Assembly: GCF_015390235.1 (NCBI RefSeq)
Contig: NZ_VUOH01000002.1
Location: forward strand, 124,001-188,000
Direction: 5' to 3'
Length of the DNA stretch: 64,000 nucleotides
Source of the DNA: Quadrisphaera sp. INWT6
Lineage (GTDB): Bacteria; Actinomycetota; Actinomycetes; Actinomycetales; Quadrisphaeraceae
How positions within the stretch are numbered: position 1 is the stretch's first letter; every line of letters begins with the position of its first letter. This document shows, piece by piece, positions 49,486 to 56,101 of this stretch. The notes below the pieces were generated by a model. That model ran no database searches and had not been told where the DNA came from. It saw nothing but the letters and a program-made list of their open reading frames with translations. A program made the translations under genes and the position numbers.

Positions 49486-50244
49486 TCACAGCCCGTCAGG
49501 GGTTTCGGCGCCCTGCGGCGGGGTGAGGACGGCGAAGCGCGTGGTGCGCCGCAGCCGGAAGCCCAGGTGCTCGTACAGGCCGATCGCGCCGGTGTTCGAC
49601 GCCGAGGCGTGCAGGAACGGCAGCTCCCCGCGCTGGCGGGTCCCGTGGGCGACGGCGAGCACGAGCCGCCGCCCCAGCCCCTGGCCGCGCCAGGCGGCGT
49701 CGGTGCACACCGCGCTGATCTCGGTGGCGCCGCGGCCTCCGCCCGCGGGGTGCAGCCGCTCCCCCGCCATCGCCACCAGCCGGCCGGAGCGGCGGACGCC
49801 GAGGTAGGTGCCCATCTGCACGGTCCGCGGCAGGAACGGCCCCGGCTCCGTGCGCCGCACCAGGTCGGTCATCTCCTCGACGTCGTCCGGGCCGAGGCGC
49901 ACCGCCTCGGGGTCCGCTGCGGTGACCACCGGCCCGTCGTCGTCGGCGACCAGCTGCACCCCGGGGATGTCGACGACCACGCCCCAGTCGCCGGGCGGGG
50001 TCGGCACGTCGCCGGTGAGGACCAGCACGCCGCCGGGACCCACCAGGGTGGCGGCGTCGCGCCAGTCACCGGGCGTCGGGTCGGGCGGCAGGGCACCGAA
50101 GGCGGCGACGTCGGGCTCGTAGGCGACCACCCGGCCGCGGCGGCGCGCGAGGTGGGCGTGCGGGCCGGTCGCCGCGTGCCAGACCGCCCGGTCGAGCAGC
50201 GCGTCGAGGTCGGTGCTCCCGCTCAGCTCGGAGCCGCCGGTCAC
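49486..50244 (-). CDS. GNAT-family N-acetyltransferase
   Basis: A 252-residue acetyltransferase with a degenerate N-terminal half and a C-terminal GNAT fold of the FR47 kind. The acetyl-CoA loop is CTDAAWRGQGLGRRLVLAVA, followed by LHASASNTGAIGLYEHLGF. It acetylates an amine, possibly a thiol- or amino acid-type product in this context. GTG at 50244 overlaps the upstream monooxygenase stop by four bases, making it the last cistron of the SAM-IV-led operon. The acceptor cannot be told. Confidence 0.88.
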   Translation of the reverse strand: MTGGSELSGSTDLDALLDRAVWHAATGPHAHLARRRGRVVAYEPDVAAFGALPPDPTPGDWRDAATLVGPGGVLVLTGDVPTPPGDWGVVVDIPGVQLVADDDGPVVTAADPEAVRLGPDDVEEMTDLVRRTEPGPFLPRTVQMGTYLGVRRSGRLVAMAGERLHPAGGGRGATEISAVCTDAAWRGQGLGRRLVLAVAHGTRQRGELPFLHASASNTGAIGLYEHLGFRLRRTTRFAVLTPPQGAETPDGL

Positions 50245-51398
50245 CGGTCGCCCCACTGCGCCGCGAGCAGCTCGTAGGAGCGGACGCGCGCCGCGTGGTC
50301 GTGGGTGGCGGTGGTGACGAGCAGCTCGTCGGCGCCGGTCGCGTCGCGCAGGCGCTCCAGGCCCGCGACGACGGTCGCCGCCGAGCCCACGAAGCGCGTG
50401 GCCAGCCGGTCGGCGACCAGCGCGTCGTCGGCGGCGGTCCACCGACCGGACGCGGTGAGCTCGGCGGCCTCCGCCGGTGTCGGGTAGGGGATGGCACCGG
50501 CGGACGTGCGGATCGAGCGCACCCACGGGCCGTAGCCGGCGGCCAGGTGCTGGGCCTCCTCGTCCGTCTCGGCGACGATGACGTCGGCGGAGACCGTCAG
50601 GTGCGGCTGGGCCGTGCCGTGCGGACCACCGGCAGGGCGGAACGCCGCCCGGTAGGAGCGGGCGGCGTCGAGGACGCCCTGCGGGGCCACGTGGTAGTTC
50701 GCCCCGAAGCGCAGGCCGCGCTCCCCCGCCACCGCCGCCGTCGTCCCGCCGGTGCTGCCGAAGAGCCAGACCTGCAGGTCGGCGCCGGTGCCGGGGTGGG
50801 CCTGCAGCGGCACGCCGGCCGAGGAGGTCCACGTGCCGGCGAGGAGGGCGAGCACGTCGTCGACCTGCTCGCCGAAGCCGGGTGCGCCGGGTGCGGGGAC
50901 GGGCACCAGCTCGGGCAGGGCCCCGAAGCGCGGCGCGGTGAGCAGCGGCGCCAGCGGGAACGGCCCGGGCACGCGCAGGCCGTCGACCACCGCGCCCTCC
51001 TGCTGCTCCGGCGTGGGCGCCGGCGGCGGGGCGAGGGGCGCGCCGTCCTCGCCGCGCGGCGGGCCCCCGGGGCGCCCGAGGCCGAGGTCGATGCGGCCGG
51101 GGTGCACGGCGTCGAGGAGGGCGAAGTCCTCCACGGCGCTCAGCACCGTGCGGTGACCGGTCTGCAGGGCCGCGGCGCCCAGCCGGATGGTCCGCGTCCG
51201 CCCCGCCACGAGCGCCAGGACGACGGCGGGCGAGACGCCCACCACGCCGGGGTTGAGGTGGTGCTCGGCCACCCAGTAGCGGGCGTACCCGCAGCGCTCC
51301 GCCGACTCGGCGAGGTCGGCGCTGTTCGCCAGCGCCTGCGCCGTCGTGCTGCCCGAGGGGACGGGCACCAGGTCGAGGACGGCCAGGGGCGTGCTCAC
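50241..51398 (-). CDS. LLM-class flavin-dependent oxidoreductase (luciferase-like)
   Basis: A 385-residue enzyme of the single-component luciferase-like family. Features: LAVLDLVPVPSGSTTAQALAN, YARYWVAEHHLNPGVVGVSP, IRLGAAALQTGHRTVLSAVEDFALLDAVHPGRIDLGLGR, and LFGSTGGTTAAVAGERGLRFG. It binds FMNH2 (or F420) and oxygenates or reduces a small substrate. GTG at 51398 overlaps the stop of the next LLM gene by four bases. Located in an operon with three other LLM genes and an OsmC protein, it probably takes part in organosulfur breakdown. Confidence 0.92.
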   Translation of the reverse strand: MSTPLAVLDLVPVPSGSTTAQALANSADLAESAERCGYARYWVAEHHLNPGVVGVSPAVVLALVAGRTRTIRLGAAALQTGHRTVLSAVEDFALLDAVHPGRIDLGLGRPGGPPRGEDGAPLAPPPAPTPEQQEGAVVDGLRVPGPFPLAPLLTAPRFGALPELVPVPAPGAPGFGEQVDDVLALLAGTWTSSAGVPLQAHPGTGADLQVWLFGSTGGTTAAVAGERGLRFGANYHVAPQGVLDAARSYRAAFRPAGGPHGTAQPHLTVSADVIVAETDEEAQHLAAGYGPWVRSIRTSAGAIPYPTPAEAAELTASGRWTAADDALVADRLATRFVGSAATVVAGLERLRDATGADELLVTTATHDHAARVRSYELLAAQWGDR

Positions 51399-52786
51399 GC
51401 GCTCGCTCCCGCCGTCGTCGTGCTGGAGCCACCGGCGGGCACCGGCCGCAGGCCGAGGTTGTCGCGCAGCGTGGTGCCCTCGTACTCGGTGCGGTGCACC
51501 CCGCGCTCCTGGAGGATCGGCACCACACGGTCGACGAACGGGTCGAGCCCGCCCGGCGTGAGGTGCGGGACGAGGATGAACCCGTCGGAGGCCTCCGCCT
51601 CGACGAGGTGCTGGATGGTGTCGGCCACGGTGGTCGGCGAGCCCACGAACGTCTGCCGCGCCGTCTGCTCGATCATCAGCTCGCGGATCGACAGGCCCTC
51701 CGCCTCGGCCCGCTCCCGCCACGCCCTCGCGGTGGCCAGCGGGTCGCGGTACTGGCGCACGCTCGCGCGACCCTGGCTCATGACCTGCTCGCCGACCACC
51801 GGGTCGACGTCGGGCAGCGGACCGTCGGGGTCGTAGCCGGACAGGTCGCGGTTCCAGACCTGCTCGAGGAAGACGATCGCCGTCGCCCCGCTGACCTGCG
51901 CGCGGCGCACCTCGCGGGCCACCTCCTCGGCCTCGGCGTCGGTGTCGCCGAGCGCGAAGGTGGCCGCGGGCAGCACGAGCAGGTCGTCTCGGCGGCGGCC
52001 GAACGCCGCGAGGCGCGCCTTGACGTCGGCGTAGAACGGCCGGCCCTCCTCGAGCGTCGCGTACCGCGTGAAGATCGCGTCGGCGTGCTCGGCGGCGAAC
52101 GCGCGGCCCTCCTCGGAGTCACCGGCCTGGAAGACCACCGGCCGCCCCTGCGGGCTGCGCGGCACGGTGGTGTGCCCGGAGACGTCGAAGTGCGCGTCGT
52201 GGCGGGCGAACGCCCCCGGCCCGGGCGCCCGCAGGAACCGGCCGGTGTCCTTGTCGGCCAGCACCTCGTCACCGCGCCAGGAGTCGAAGAGCTCGAGCGC
52301 CGTCTCCAGGAACGAGCGGGCGCGGTCGTAGCGCTGGTCAGCGGCGAGGAACCCGCCGCGGCGGAAGTTCTCGCCCGTGAACGCGTCCCAGCTGGTGACG
52401 ACGTTCCACGCGGCCCGACCCTCGGAGAGGTGGTCGAGGGTGGCGAACTGCCGGGCCACCTCGTAGGGCTCGTTGAACGTCGAGCTGATGGTGCCGGTGA
52501 GCCCCAGGTGCGTGGTGACGCCGGCGAGGGCCGCGAGGATCGTGAAGGTGTCGGGCCTGCCGACGACGTCGAGGTCGTAGGTGCGCCCGGCGTGCTCGCG
52601 CAGCCGCAGCCCCTCGGCGAGGAAGAGGAAGTCGAGCTTGCCGCGCTCGGCGGTCTGCGCGAAGCGCACGAACGAGTCGGGGTCGATGTGGCTGCCCGCG
52701 GCGGGGTCGGACCACACGGTGGTGTTGTTGACGCCGGGGAAGTGCGCCGCGAGGTGCACCTGGCGCCCGGTCGTGTCTCGGCTCAT
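51395..52786 (-). CDS. NtaA/SnaA/DszA-type flavin monooxygenase
   Basis: A 463-residue LLM protein of the nitrilotriacetate/dibenzothiophene-sulfone monooxygenase subfamily. Features: VHLAAHFPGVNNTTVWSDPAAGSHIDPDSF, LDFLFLAEGLRLREH, AWNVVTSWDAFTGENFRRGGF, YDRARSFLETALELFDSW and VFQAGDSEEGRAFAAEHADAIF. This group uses FMNH2 and oxygen to cut C-N or C-S bonds. ATG at 52786 overlaps the previous stop by ATGA. Of the four LLM enzymes in the operon it is the one most like known desulfurising monooxygenases. Confidence 0.92.
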   Translation of the reverse strand: MSRDTTGRQVHLAAHFPGVNNTTVWSDPAAGSHIDPDSFVRFAQTAERGKLDFLFLAEGLRLREHAGRTYDLDVVGRPDTFTILAALAGVTTHLGLTGTISSTFNEPYEVARQFATLDHLSEGRAAWNVVTSWDAFTGENFRRGGFLAADQRYDRARSFLETALELFDSWRGDEVLADKDTGRFLRAPGPGAFARHDAHFDVSGHTTVPRSPQGRPVVFQAGDSEEGRAFAAEHADAIFTRYATLEEGRPFYADVKARLAAFGRRRDDLLVLPAATFALGDTDAEAEEVAREVRRAQVSGATAIVFLEQVWNRDLSGYDPDGPLPDVDPVVGEQVMSQGRASVRQYRDPLATARAWRERAEAEGLSIRELMIEQTARQTFVGSPTTVADTIQHLVEAEASDGFILVPHLTPGGLDPFVDRVVPILQERGVHRTEYEGTTLRDNLGLRPVPAGGSSTTTAGASA

Positions 52787-54009
52787 CGCGCTGCCTCCGT
52801 GAGGGCGTAGCGGTTGGCGGGGCGGGCCAGGCCGAGGCGCTCGCGCAGCGTGCGCTCGGAGTACTCCGTGCGGAACGCCCCGCGGCGCTGCAGCTCGAGG
52901 ACGAGCCCGCGCGTGGTGGCGTGCAGGTCGTCGGGCAGGACGGCGGGGCGCAGCCGCAGGCCGTCCAGGCCCGCCTCCTGCCACGCCAGGGCGAGGTCGG
53001 CCAGCTCGGCGGGCGTCCCGGCGAAGACCAGCGCGTCGCTGGTGCCGGCCAGGGGTGCCCCGGCGGCCTCGTCGAGGCGGGCCAGCCGCTCCGCCGCGGC
53101 CCCGGGCCGCTCGTCGAGGACGACGGCGACGTCTCCGAGCAGGCGCAGCGGCTGGTCGCCGGCGCCGTCCGGCCAGGCGGGCTGGGTCTGCCGCTCGGCG
53201 CGCACGGCGGTGACGAGGCGCCGCGCGTCGTCGGCGTCGTGGGGGGTGAGGAACCCCAGGTCCGCGGAGCGCGCGACGAAGCGGTGCGCCACGGGCACGT
53301 GGCTCAGGGCCGCCACGAGCGGCTGGCCCTGCGGCGGGCGCGGGGTGGTCGAGGGGCCGCGCACCGAGAAGTGCGGGCTGTCGACGTCGACGGCGTGCAG
53401 CTTGGCGGCGTCGACGAAGCGGCCGGTCGCGGTGTCGCGGATCTCGGCGTCGTCCTCCCAGGAGTCCCAGAGGCGGCGCACCACCTCGGTCCAGTCGCGG
53501 GCCTCGTCGAAGACGTCCTCCACGAGCGCCGGGTCGGGGGTGCTCCCGGGGACGAGGGCCGTCAGCTCCGGGCGGCGACCGAGGTGGGCGGCCTCGTCCG
53601 GGCGCAGGGAGACCTGCACCCGCACGCCCGCGCGGCCGCGGCTCGCGTGGTCGAGGGTGGCCACGGCCTTGGAGAGGTGGAACGGCTCCGTGTGCGTCGC
53701 CGTCGCGCTCGGCACGAGGCCGACGTGCTGGGTGACGAGGGAGAGCCTCGCGGCCACGAGCACGGCGTCGAGGCGGCCGACCACCACGTCGGTCCGGTCC
53801 GTCGACTGCAGGCGGAACGCGTCCTCGAGGGTGACCAGGTCGAGCAGGCCGGCCTCGGCCTCGAGGGCGAGGTCGGTCCAGTAGCGGGCGCTGGACAGCT
53901 CGGTGGGGCGGGCGGCGGGCTCGCGCCAGGCGGCGGGGTGCCACCCCGCGCCGTCGAGCGCGACCGCGAGGTGCAGGGGCTTCGTGGGCACGAGCGGGTC
54001 AGCGGGCAC
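52783..54009 (-). CDS. LLM-class flavin monooxygenase, paralogue
   Basis: A 408-residue luciferase-like protein related to the DszA-type gene beside it but more divergent. It has LHLAVALDGAGWHPAAWREP, DLALEAEAGLLDLVTLEDAF, ATLDHASRGRAGVRVQVSL and VFDEARDWTEVVRRLWDSWEDD. The end RRGAFRTEYSERTLRERLGL is shared with the other members of the operon. The start is GTG at 54009 or GTG at 53991; neither has a strong ribosome site. It ends in ATGA overlap with the next gene. Confidence 0.88.
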   Translation of the reverse strand: MPADPLVPTKPLHLAVALDGAGWHPAAWREPAARPTELSSARYWTDLALEAEAGLLDLVTLEDAFRLQSTDRTDVVVGRLDAVLVAARLSLVTQHVGLVPSATATHTEPFHLSKAVATLDHASRGRAGVRVQVSLRPDEAAHLGRRPELTALVPGSTPDPALVEDVFDEARDWTEVVRRLWDSWEDDAEIRDTATGRFVDAAKLHAVDVDSPHFSVRGPSTTPRPPQGQPLVAALSHVPVAHRFVARSADLGFLTPHDADDARRLVTAVRAERQTQPAWPDGAGDQPLRLLGDVAVVLDERPGAAAERLARLDEAAGAPLAGTSDALVFAGTPAELADLALAWQEAGLDGLRLRPAVLPDDLHATTRGLVLELQRRGAFRTEYSERTLRERLGLARPANRYALTEAAR

Positions 54010-54062
54010 GGGGGCGCATCTGTTCCAGGGCACCTGCTGACCCGCTCGGCGTCGTGGCGGCC

Positions 54063-54554
54063 TCAGACGGCCGCGCGGACCCTGTTGGTCCAGGTCGAGA
54101 CCACCTCGGTGCCCGCGCGCTCCAGCAGCTGGGTCACGGGGCAGCGGCGGCTGACCTCGGCCACGAAGGCGTCGAACGCGGCGTCGTCGAGGTCGGTCTC
54201 CAGCTCGACGGTCAGCGACACCTTCGAGAACGACGGGTTCCCCTCGGCACCGAAGACGAGCACGGAGTTGTCGAGCTCGGCGTCGACGCGGCCGTGGAAC
54301 GCGCCCAGCTCGACGCCCTGGCCGAGGGCGACGATCTTCGAGGTGACCTGGTTGCACGAGACGTAGCCCGCGAGCACCAGGTCGAGCGGGCTGGGGGCGC
54401 TGTCGGTGCCCCCGAACGCCGGGTGGCCCTCGGCGCGGACGACGTGGGGTCCGCCGGCGACGGCGACGTCCTGCAGGACGCCCTCCCCCTCGCCGTGGAG
54501 CTCGAAGCTGAGGACGGAACCCTTCGGGTGCAGCGGCACGTGCGTCTCCTCCAT
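54063..54554 (-). CDS. OsmC-family protein
   Basis: A 163-residue OsmC/YhfA-like protein. Two conserved Cys lie in LAGYVSCNQVTSKIVAL and in SRRCPVTQLLERAG, the pair that reduces organic hydroperoxides in OsmC/Ohr enzymes. ATG at 54554 starts the compact domain. It is embedded between LLM monooxygenase genes under a SAM-IV leader. There it may remove peroxides or reactive sulfur formed by the monooxygenases; this role is inferred. Confidence 0.9.
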   Translation of the reverse strand: MEETHVPLHPKGSVLSFELHGEGEGVLQDVAVAGGPHVVRAEGHPAFGGTDSAPSPLDLVLAGYVSCNQVTSKIVALGQGVELGAFHGRVDAELDNSVLVFGAEGNPSFSKVSLTVELETDLDDAAFDAFVAEVSRRCPVTQLLERAGTEVVSTWTNRVRAAV

Positions 54555-54628
54555 CGGTGCGGGCGCGCGGGACCGCGCGCCTCGGTGGGCGGGTGGTGCT
54601 CGGGTGGTGCGGTGGGTGGGGCGCCGGC

Positions 54629-55522
54629 TCAGGCGGCGCGGCGCTCCGCGGAGCCAGCCGGCTCGGCAGGGTCGGCGGTCTCGGCGGTCTCGGCGCGGAG
54701 CCGGTCCCGCAGTCCGGGCTCGGAGCTCGAGCGGCGGAAGGCCCCGCGGCGCTGGAGCTCGGGCACCAGGCCGCGCGTGGTGGCGAGCAGGTCGCGGAGC
54801 GGCTCGGCGGGGTGCAGCCGCAGCCCCTGCAGGCCCGCCGCGCGCCACGCCAGCGCGAGGTCGGCGAGCTGGGAGGGCGTTCCGGCGAACACGCGCGCGC
54901 CCTCGGGTGCGGTGGCCGGGAGGCTCGCCGCCGCGAGGTCCGCGCGGTCGCGGGCGCGGGCGGCGTCGTCCTCGAGCACGACGACCAGGTCTCCGAGGAG
55001 GTGGCGCGGAGCGCCCTCGGTGCGGGCCGCCGCGACGAGCTGGTGGACGTCGACGGTGGTGCGCGGGGCGACGAACCCGAGGTCGGCGGCCGAGGACGGC
55101 AGGGCGCGCGGGCCGCGCCCGGGGCGGCCGGGCAGGGCCACGACGGGCCCGGTCCCCTCCGCGGACCAGCGGCGACGAACCGCGCGGACCCACCCCTGCT
55201 CGTCGGCGGGGACGGGCACCTGCAGCAGGACGCCGGCGCGTCCGCCGCTGGCGCGGTCGAGCTCCTCGACCGCGGTGGCGAGCCGGCCGGGCTCGCTCAG
55301 GCCGGCGCGGACGACGGGCAGCAGGCCGGTGCTGCGGGTGGCCGCCGCCAGGCGGGTCGCGGCACGGACGGCCCCGAGCTCGTCGGCGGCGGGACCGGCG
55401 GGGGCGTCGAGGGTGAGGAAGTCGAGCAGGCCCCTCTCGGCCTCGGCGGCCAGGTCGGCCCAGGGCGCCGTCGCGCCGGCGTGGTGCCCGCCGAGGGCGA
55501 GGGCCAGGTGCAGGTGGGACAT
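54629..55522 (-). CDS. Shortened LLM-class monooxygenase, first gene of the operon
   Basis: A 297-residue luciferase-like protein, about 110 residues shorter than its neighbour paralogue. It keeps the N-terminal strand (LHLALALGGHHAGATAPWADL), LLDFLTLDAP, LDRASGGRAGVLLQVPVP, and a C-terminal part nearly identical in pattern to the paralogue (ATTRGLVPELQRRGAFRRSS). Much of the central barrel is missing, so activity is doubtful. ATG at 55522 has GAAGAGG 8 bases upstream. The SAM-IV riboswitch lies directly upstream. Confidence 0.82.
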   Translation of the reverse strand: MSHLHLALALGGHHAGATAPWADLAAEAERGLLDFLTLDAPAGPAADELGAVRAATRLAAATRSTGLLPVVRAGLSEPGRLATAVEELDRASGGRAGVLLQVPVPADEQGWVRAVRRRWSAEGTGPVVALPGRPGRGPRALPSSAADLGFVAPRTTVDVHQLVAAARTEGAPRHLLGDLVVVLEDDAARARDRADLAAASLPATAPEGARVFAGTPSQLADLALAWRAAGLQGLRLHPAEPLRDLLATTRGLVPELQRRGAFRRSSSEPGLRDRLRAETAETADPAEPAGSAERRAA

Positions 55523-55593
55523 CGGTGGACCTCTTCCGCCCCGGTGCGGGGCCTCGCGCTTACCGGGGCCCCGCCTCGTGCGGGGTCCGGTCG

Positions 55594-55672
55594 GGTCGTC
55601 ACCTGGGGCACCCCGCCGCAGAGCGAGGGTTGCCGGTCAGCTAGCCAGGGCTTGTCGCTGACGCTCATGACC
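55594..55672 (-). promoter_or_regulatory. SAM-IV riboswitch
   Basis: Reading the minus strand from 55672, the conserved blocks of the actinobacterial SAM-IV aptamer appear in order: GGTCATGAGCGTCAGCG, AAGCCC, GCTGACCGGCAACCCTC, GGGGTGCCCC and GTGACGACC. The outer stem closes as GGTC with GACC. SAM binding lowers expression of sulfur or methionine genes. Here it controls the LLM/OsmC operon, whose first start is about 72 bases downstream of the aptamer. GC-rich stems between the aptamer and the start could form the switching element. Confidence 0.9.
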
Positions 55673-55793
55673 TGATGGATCTGGTGGAGCTGGTCGTGCT
55701 GGGCCAAGCGTGGCGCCTGGGGCGCGGGCGCGTCAACACCACCCCGCCGTCCTCCCCCGCGGGGCGCCCGCTCCCCTCGTACGCCCTCCCCCT

Positions 55794-55873
55794 GTTGGCA
55801 CGGGGTGGCCCTGCGCCAGTAGGACTGGCACGGGGTGGCCCTGCGTCATCCGGGGAGGGGTGCAGATCCCCCC
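55794..55873. repeat. 80-base direct repeat, copy 1
   Basis: It begins GTTGGCACGGGGTGGCCC and ends GCAGATCCCCCC. Within it GGCACGGGGTGGCCCTGCG occurs twice, 30 bases apart. It matches copy 2 at 56022-56101 at about 76 of 80 positions. Confidence 0.8.
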
Positions 55874-55915
55874 ACTCCAGGCGGAGTGACCTCCGGGCGC
55901 GCCCAAGACCTCGAG

Positions 55916-55964
55916 GGCGGAGTCCGGGGCCACATCAGCGCCCCCTCTGGCCCGGGACTCCGCC
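55916..55964. repeat. 17-base inverted repeat between the direct repeats
   Basis: Arms at 55916-55932 (GGCGGAGTCCGGGGCCA) and 55948-55964 pair with one mismatch around a 15-base loop. It stands midway between the two copies of the 80-base repeat. Confidence 0.65.
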
Positions 55965-56021
55965 GTCGCGAGCTCCGCTCCGCCCCACCGCGGGCGCTGC
56001 GAGGCGAGGCGAGGCCCCCTC

Positions 56022-56101
56022 GTTGGCACGGGGTGGCCCTGCGCCAGCAGGACTGGCACGGGGTGGCCCTGCGCCATCCCGGGAGTGGTGCAGATCCCCC
56101 C
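56022..56101. repeat. 80-base direct repeat, copy 2
   Basis: Same sequence as 55794-55873 with about four changes, again with the internal 30-base doubling. The low divergence implies a recent duplication or gene conversion. Confidence 0.8.

Follow-up and report, generated by a model that had tools for sequence, protein, structure and literature searches.

The locus described here lies on the minus strand of a 64,000-nucleotide stretch of the Quadrisphaera sp. INWT6 genome, referred to as the window. It consists of a SAM-IV riboswitch aptamer (SAM, S-adenosylmethionine) at positions 55672-55551, followed by six linked genes in the order A, OsmC, C, D, E, and F. Gene A (54629..55522) is a shortened TIM-barrel paralogue of gene C from the luciferase-like monooxygenase (LLM) group. 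The OsmC gene (54063..54554; PF02566, 61.6 bits) encodes a protein that resembles thiol peroxidases and has two spaced cysteines. Genes C (52783..54009), D (51395..52786), and E (50241..51398) are further LLM-type genes, and gene F (49486..50244) encodes a GNAT acetyltransferase (FR47; PF08445/PF00583). The genes overlap by approximately 4 nucleotides at C/D, D/E, and E/F, while gaps of 74 and 53 nucleotides separate A from OsmC and OsmC from C. This arrangement, an aptamer directly ahead of six linked minus-strand genes including an OsmC and a GNAT gene, is the one given in a preliminary description of the locus.

The aptamer was identified by comparing the window with Rfam using Infernal. 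The SAM-IV model (RF00634) is matched over its full length (model positions 1-116) with 92.5 bits and an E value of 1.9e-15, compared with a gathering score of 38 bits, and is the sole Rfam match across the whole window. The preliminary description had named this search as the check on its SAM-IV assignment, which holds; its endpoint at 55594 does not, as it omits P5 and the 3’ strand of the second pseudoknot (PK-2). The published SAM-IV architecture, including pseudoknots PK-1 and PK-2 (PMC6890682), was used as the reference fold for an alignment of 17 sequences, composed of the SAM-IV copies of this genome and those of relatives. Across the 32 pairs of this fold, 99.1% of cells are paired, as opposed to 29-45% when the partners are shifted by 1-3 columns. 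Two-sided changes occur at 13 of the 32 pairs, and all four PK-2 pairs are compensated, counts that do not represent independent events since the alignment mixes copies from one genome with close relatives. The P1, P2, P3, and P5 helices and both pseudoknots are supported by covariation. A chance match or misread aptamer is ruled out by the Rfam score together with the paired-cell covariation against the shifted controls.

The region around the aptamer was aligned among the window genome and five sister genomes of the same genus (G001-G005), giving six leaders. A putative -35 element, TTGACG (55731..55736, minus strand), is invariant in all six. It is followed after 18 nucleotides by a putative -10 element, CACGCT (55707..55712), in which the A at position 2 and the final CT are kept among the leaders, with a spacing of 17-18 nucleotides. 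A generic promoter scan called no promoter at the leader owing to the weak -10 element. The aptamer core is nearly identical in the six leaders and ends 29 nucleotides ahead of gene A, with a range of 27-32 nucleotides between aptamer and start codon. This short leader (55523..55550) holds a GC hairpin (GCCCC...GGGGC), which lies partly within the 3’ end of the aptamer, and a Shine-Dalgarno sequence (GAAGAGG); the hairpin and the GAGG directly before the start codon are conserved in all six. No intrinsic terminator was found by a scan of the 55523-55550 region, which makes control at the translation start the likelier mode of action. A dispersed 21-nucleotide repeat, TGGCACGGGGTGGCCCTGCGC, was observed just upstream of the operon promoter at 55788-56101. 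It has 23 copies in the genome with no more than one mismatch, as opposed to none for a reversed control.

The genes can be sorted by their scores against curated family models. Only D and E exceed a family cut-off, D with 406 bits for TIGR03860 (cut-off 279.7) and E with 251.2 bits for TIGR03558, the MsnO8 family (cut-off 166.95). Gene C falls below the TIGR03860 cut-off at 232.8 bits, and gene A reaches 46.7 bits from its C-terminal part only. The Pfam Bac_luciferase domain was found in C, D, and E, and a Pfam search of gene A gave zero matches. The closest PDB match of D is Bacillus subtilis YtnJ/CmoJ (E 3e-82), followed by DszA (E 3e-70) or BdsA and nitrilotriacetate monooxygenase. D is thus predicted to be an FMNH2-dependent monooxygenase (FMN, flavin mononucleotide) of the NtaA/DmoA family, and the DszA/NtaA-like enzyme noted earlier at the locus can be assigned to it. 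E is closest to MsnO8 (4us5) and F to a structural-genomics GNAT.

Each of the six same-genus genomes has SAM-IV ahead of gene A. The aptamer stands ahead of A-C-D-E-F in G001-G004, and in G005 the same order is present up to a contig end within C. The sister G001 has the order A, OsmC, a second SAM-IV, permease, ATPase, binding protein, and C-D-E-F, and its OsmC copy is 91% identical to that of the window. Two of its transport proteins were scored, and all matches are below cut-off. For the binding protein, the best transporter model is cystine; for the permease, GltK ranks first and cystine second.

Outside the genus, a block of permease, ATPase, binding protein, GNAT, C, D, a further LLM (LLM3), and E is present on Streptomyces plasmids and chromosomes. 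Its GNAT is 53-56% identical to F, and some copies adjoin ssuE, metX/metY, a GST-like gene, or sulfatase genes. LLM3 was considered as an orthologue of gene A and ruled out, as it is a CE1758-type LLM. Among 80 actinomycete loci, the run containing C includes D in 77, E in 33, LLM3 in 23, a GNAT in 12, and a binding protein in 11. C and D therefore form the core of the cassette, and the remaining members are variable. D directly adjoins C in 76 of the 80; the other four consist of two at or near a contig end, one with an intervening gene, and one true lone C.

Several of these cassettes also have a SAM-IV aptamer. It directly precedes C-D in a genome of another family (G042), and in four Streptomyces loci it lies a short distance upstream of the cassette. 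Ornithinimicrobium has two divergent copies, one for E and one for C-D; in Nakamurella the aptamer stands ahead of LLM3-E and in Blastococcus ahead of the transporter. Recurrence in five same-genus genomes, together with the SAM-IV copies before homologues in other actinomycete genera, argues that the arrangement is not a chance pairing. A literature search on SAM-IV and luciferase-like monooxygenases returned no relevant paper.

Short open reading frames, located before transporter or oxygenase genes, were observed after some of these aptamers. Six are of the type IDLLRVxSALC (L074:5773, L085:5659, L086:5634, L113:3383, L090:18537, and L146:1880), and one from Ornithinimicrobium ends in GCRCCCSPCCL (L134:9589). 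These resemble cysteine-type leader peptides, which suggests serial control by SAM and cysteine. SAM-IV was also observed near C-D ahead of a class V aminotransferase gene, cysteine desulfurase-like by eye, in loci of Blastococcus, Pseudonocardia, and Nakamurella (L090:7599-7711, L145:1502-1616, and L146:184-298).

The window genome contains eight SAM-IV copies. Among the other copies, one heads metY and two head metNIQ-like sets, the second of which (metN-I-Q-like) includes an F420-type LLM. Further copies precede an SfnB/DszC-like gene, a permease/hydantoinase pair, and a sugar-type ABC transporter with an NtaA-like gene nearby. Most of these targets are sulfur genes (metY, metNIQ-like, SfnB/DszC-like). 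The SfnB/DszC-like gene (L016:7214-8689) has the acyl-CoA-dehydrogenase fold and scores 234 bits for TIGR04022, which is below cut-off. The nucleobase-type permease and hydantoinase-like gene (L011:5797-8989) are an unexpected target. One orphan copy (L013:14256-14365; C2:202256-202365 in genome coordinates) has no clear sense gene downstream and points into the 3’ end of an oppositely oriented LacI-type gene.

The operon likely scavenges organosulfur compounds by way of C-S monooxygenation, with SAM controlling its expression. This organosulfur role, like SAM-IV control itself, is supported by synteny, by the other SAM-IV targets of the genome, and by the cysteine-type leader peptides before the same cassette elsewhere. 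It had earlier been put forward as a possibly unrecorded pathway; the role is retained here, while the novelty is reduced by the resemblance of the parts to the known ytn and scm systems of S-alkylcysteine salvage. In B. subtilis, salvaged S-alkylcysteines are first N-acetylated and then converted to the sulfoxide by CmoO; CmoJ cleaves the C-S bond, and reduction and deacetylation follow (PMC10863075; PMC12757645). On balance, we favor the view that the operon is SAM-repressed and works like this CmoO/CmoJ route. It shares with the ytn system a CmoJ-type enzyme (D), a second LLM of another family (E, by family a candidate for the CmoO role), and a GNAT (F, by family a candidate for the ScmL/YtmI role). 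The cystine-type ABC transporter of that system has a counterpart only in the cassettes of relatives (G001 and Streptomyces). The operon differs in having SAM-IV, OsmC, and LLM paralogues lacking the flavin site (C and A), and in having no linked deacetylase or transporter. The B. subtilis scm (yxe) cluster for S-(2-succino)cysteine likewise combines an acetyltransferase with an FMN-dependent C-S monooxygenase (PMC12757645); unlike it, the operon has no linked ScmP deacetylase, contains two LLM types, and is regulated differently.

Following the CmoO/CmoJ route, the operon may work as follows. At high SAM, the aptamer would fold and block translation at the adjacent start site, and at low methionine or SAM the genes would be expressed. 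A substrate would be taken up by a cystine-type ABC transporter, as encoded in the cassette of relatives and absent from the operon here. F would N-acetylate the amino group, and E, a candidate sulfoxidase, would oxidize the thioether to a sulfoxide. D would then cleave the C-S bond oxidatively, drawing its reduced FMN from a reductase whose gene lies elsewhere. OsmC could reduce peroxide or sulfenic by-products. S-alkylated cysteines or related amino acids are the leading candidate substrate class, favored over sulfonates and sulfones by the cystine or amino-acid type of the relatives’ transporter.

Several observations weigh against this assignment. The GNAT is found within the C-D run in only 12 of the 80 loci, so acetylation is not a universal step, and OsmC accompanies the cassette in this genus only. 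A linked N-acetylcysteine deacetylase is lacking, with an M20D match in at most one of the 80 loci; the window genome has an M20D amidohydrolase unlinked to the operon. Within 10 kb, no SAM-IV was found at most of the 80 loci, and this holds for most distant C-D loci. The window genome holds no close copy of the cassette transporter, the nearest relative of the cassette binding protein being 26% identical, and a cassette transporter located elsewhere in this genome was rejected on this ground. As the preliminary description had stated, no gene for a sulfonate transporter or a flavin reductase was seen next to the operon; a cystine transporter was not seen there either, and the two FMN_red matches of the genome are both outside the window.

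The strongest alternative, which we nevertheless consider unlikely, is that sulfonates, sulfones, or sulfonate esters are the compounds scavenged, in the manner of Ssu, Sfn, Dsz, or Seu systems, with E and D acting on alkyl or aryl sulfonyl compounds. The match of D to DszA is consistent with this, as are the ssuE, sulfatase, aryl-sulfate sulfotransferase, or NrtA/SsuA genes near the cassette in some relatives and the SfnB/DszC-like gene under its own SAM-IV in this genome. However, CmoJ is a closer match to D than DszA is, the transporter that recurs in linkage is of the amino-acid/cystine type rather than SsuABC, and the GNAT has no obvious role on sulfonates.

The flavin site separates D from C and A. 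It was compared in 73 D and 79 C homologues aligned with DszA and CmoJ, using DszA numbering. N135, V137, T138, R159, Y160, Q227, and G229 are retained in all 73 D homologues, and position 139 holds S or T, with S139 itself present in the D of the window. In BdsA, a protein with 79% identity to DszA, FMN is bound at V137, S139, R159, and Y160, and mutation of H156 halved BdsA activity (PMC5819316). H156 is not retained in D proteins; the window D has A at this position and D at L230. By family and residues, D is a canonical NtaA/DmoA enzyme. It shares this family and most FMN residues (not H156 and L230) with DszA/BdsA, the dibenzothiophene sulfone monooxygenases, but the substrate-contact residues F12, V248, and H316 are not conserved, and DszB and DszC are absent from the operon.

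The FMN/O2-contact residues are replaced in all 79 C homologues. Positions 135 and 137 are almost always R or Q and Q, R, or K, respectively, 159 is mostly L, 160 is mostly F, and [AS]LA takes the place of QAG in the Q227 region. Gene A is 37% identical to C, and its FMN segment is deleted in an alignment with C and orthologues. By its sequence, A is a shortened, genus-specific degenerate copy of C that has been kept in the genus. None of the six same-genus genomes has a disrupted copy, yet A is the fastest-evolving and least constrained of the genes compared, with a nonsynonymous-to-synonymous rate ratio (dN/dS) among these genomes of 0.28-0.67 for A, 0.24-0.35 for C, and 0.13-0.24 for D. A decaying pseudogene is not favored for A, given its intact state in six species and its dN/dS values. 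The four luciferase-like flavin monooxygenases of the preliminary description are four by descent, but probably comprise two enzymes and two degenerate paralogues.

It is improbable that A and C have unusual FMN sites but are otherwise ordinary, active flavin monooxygenases, in which case the pathway would have four oxygenation steps. Both retain the fold, with AlphaFold (AF2) models showing full TIM barrels at a good mean confidence (pLDDT 84.9 each), and the nearest structures are of the NtaA family (3sdo for C, Z 44.0; BdsA 5xkd for A, Z 27.6, with CmoJ also at about 27). C is also under purifying selection. Against this stand the replacements across the C homologues (N135 to R/Q, R159 to L, Y160 to F, and QAG to [AS]LA) and the lost FMN segment of A.

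C is instead proposed as an obligate, non-catalytic partner subunit of D. Paired, related but non-identical LLM barrels are known from the two-protein flavin oxygenases LuxA/LuxB and the streptoseomycin entry 7e36 (chains A and B). C and D both match 7e36 chains, whose two different LLM proteins are a possible precedent for a C-D pair; unlike these systems, C and D are two NtaA-family members, and their pairing is predicted. More tentatively, C and D may form an obligate heteromeric flavin oxygenase, with C an NtaA-family pseudoenzyme that does not bind flavin and is conserved across Actinomycetota. The pathway they serve would be actinobacterial, cleave C-S bonds in a new range of substrates, and be gated by SAM-IV, which in some lineages would stand in tandem with a cysteine-sensing leader peptide.

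Very improbable is a SAM-IV relic, or one controlling A alone, with the downstream genes expressed from other promoters for a non-sulfur role such as xenobiotic or chelator degradation: promoters could lie in the 74- and 53-nucleotide gaps, chelators and chlorinated aromatics are also among the substrates of NtaA-family enzymes, and the SAM-IV loci of this genome include the permease/hydantoinase set and an orphan, but the second SAM-IV of G001 precedes transporter-C-D-E-F, that of G042 directly precedes C-D, and all six species keep the promoter, aptamer, and leader.

The RNA agrees with RF00634 in sequence, helices, and both pseudoknots, but here it stands before an oxygenase cassette, a target that the papers searched do not name, and not before genes for methionine biosynthesis or transport. 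The parts of the operon are of known kinds; new are their combination, with a cassette of this type placed under SAM-IV, and the conserved partner predicted to be a pseudoenzyme. A well-defined SAM-sensing RNA is thereby tied to a widespread, uncharacterized actinobacterial oxygenase cassette, which makes the function of the cassette directly testable. Across many genera, an oxygenase paralogue lacking the flavin site stays beside its predicted active sister, and in some lineages the leaders appear to sense SAM and cysteine serially.

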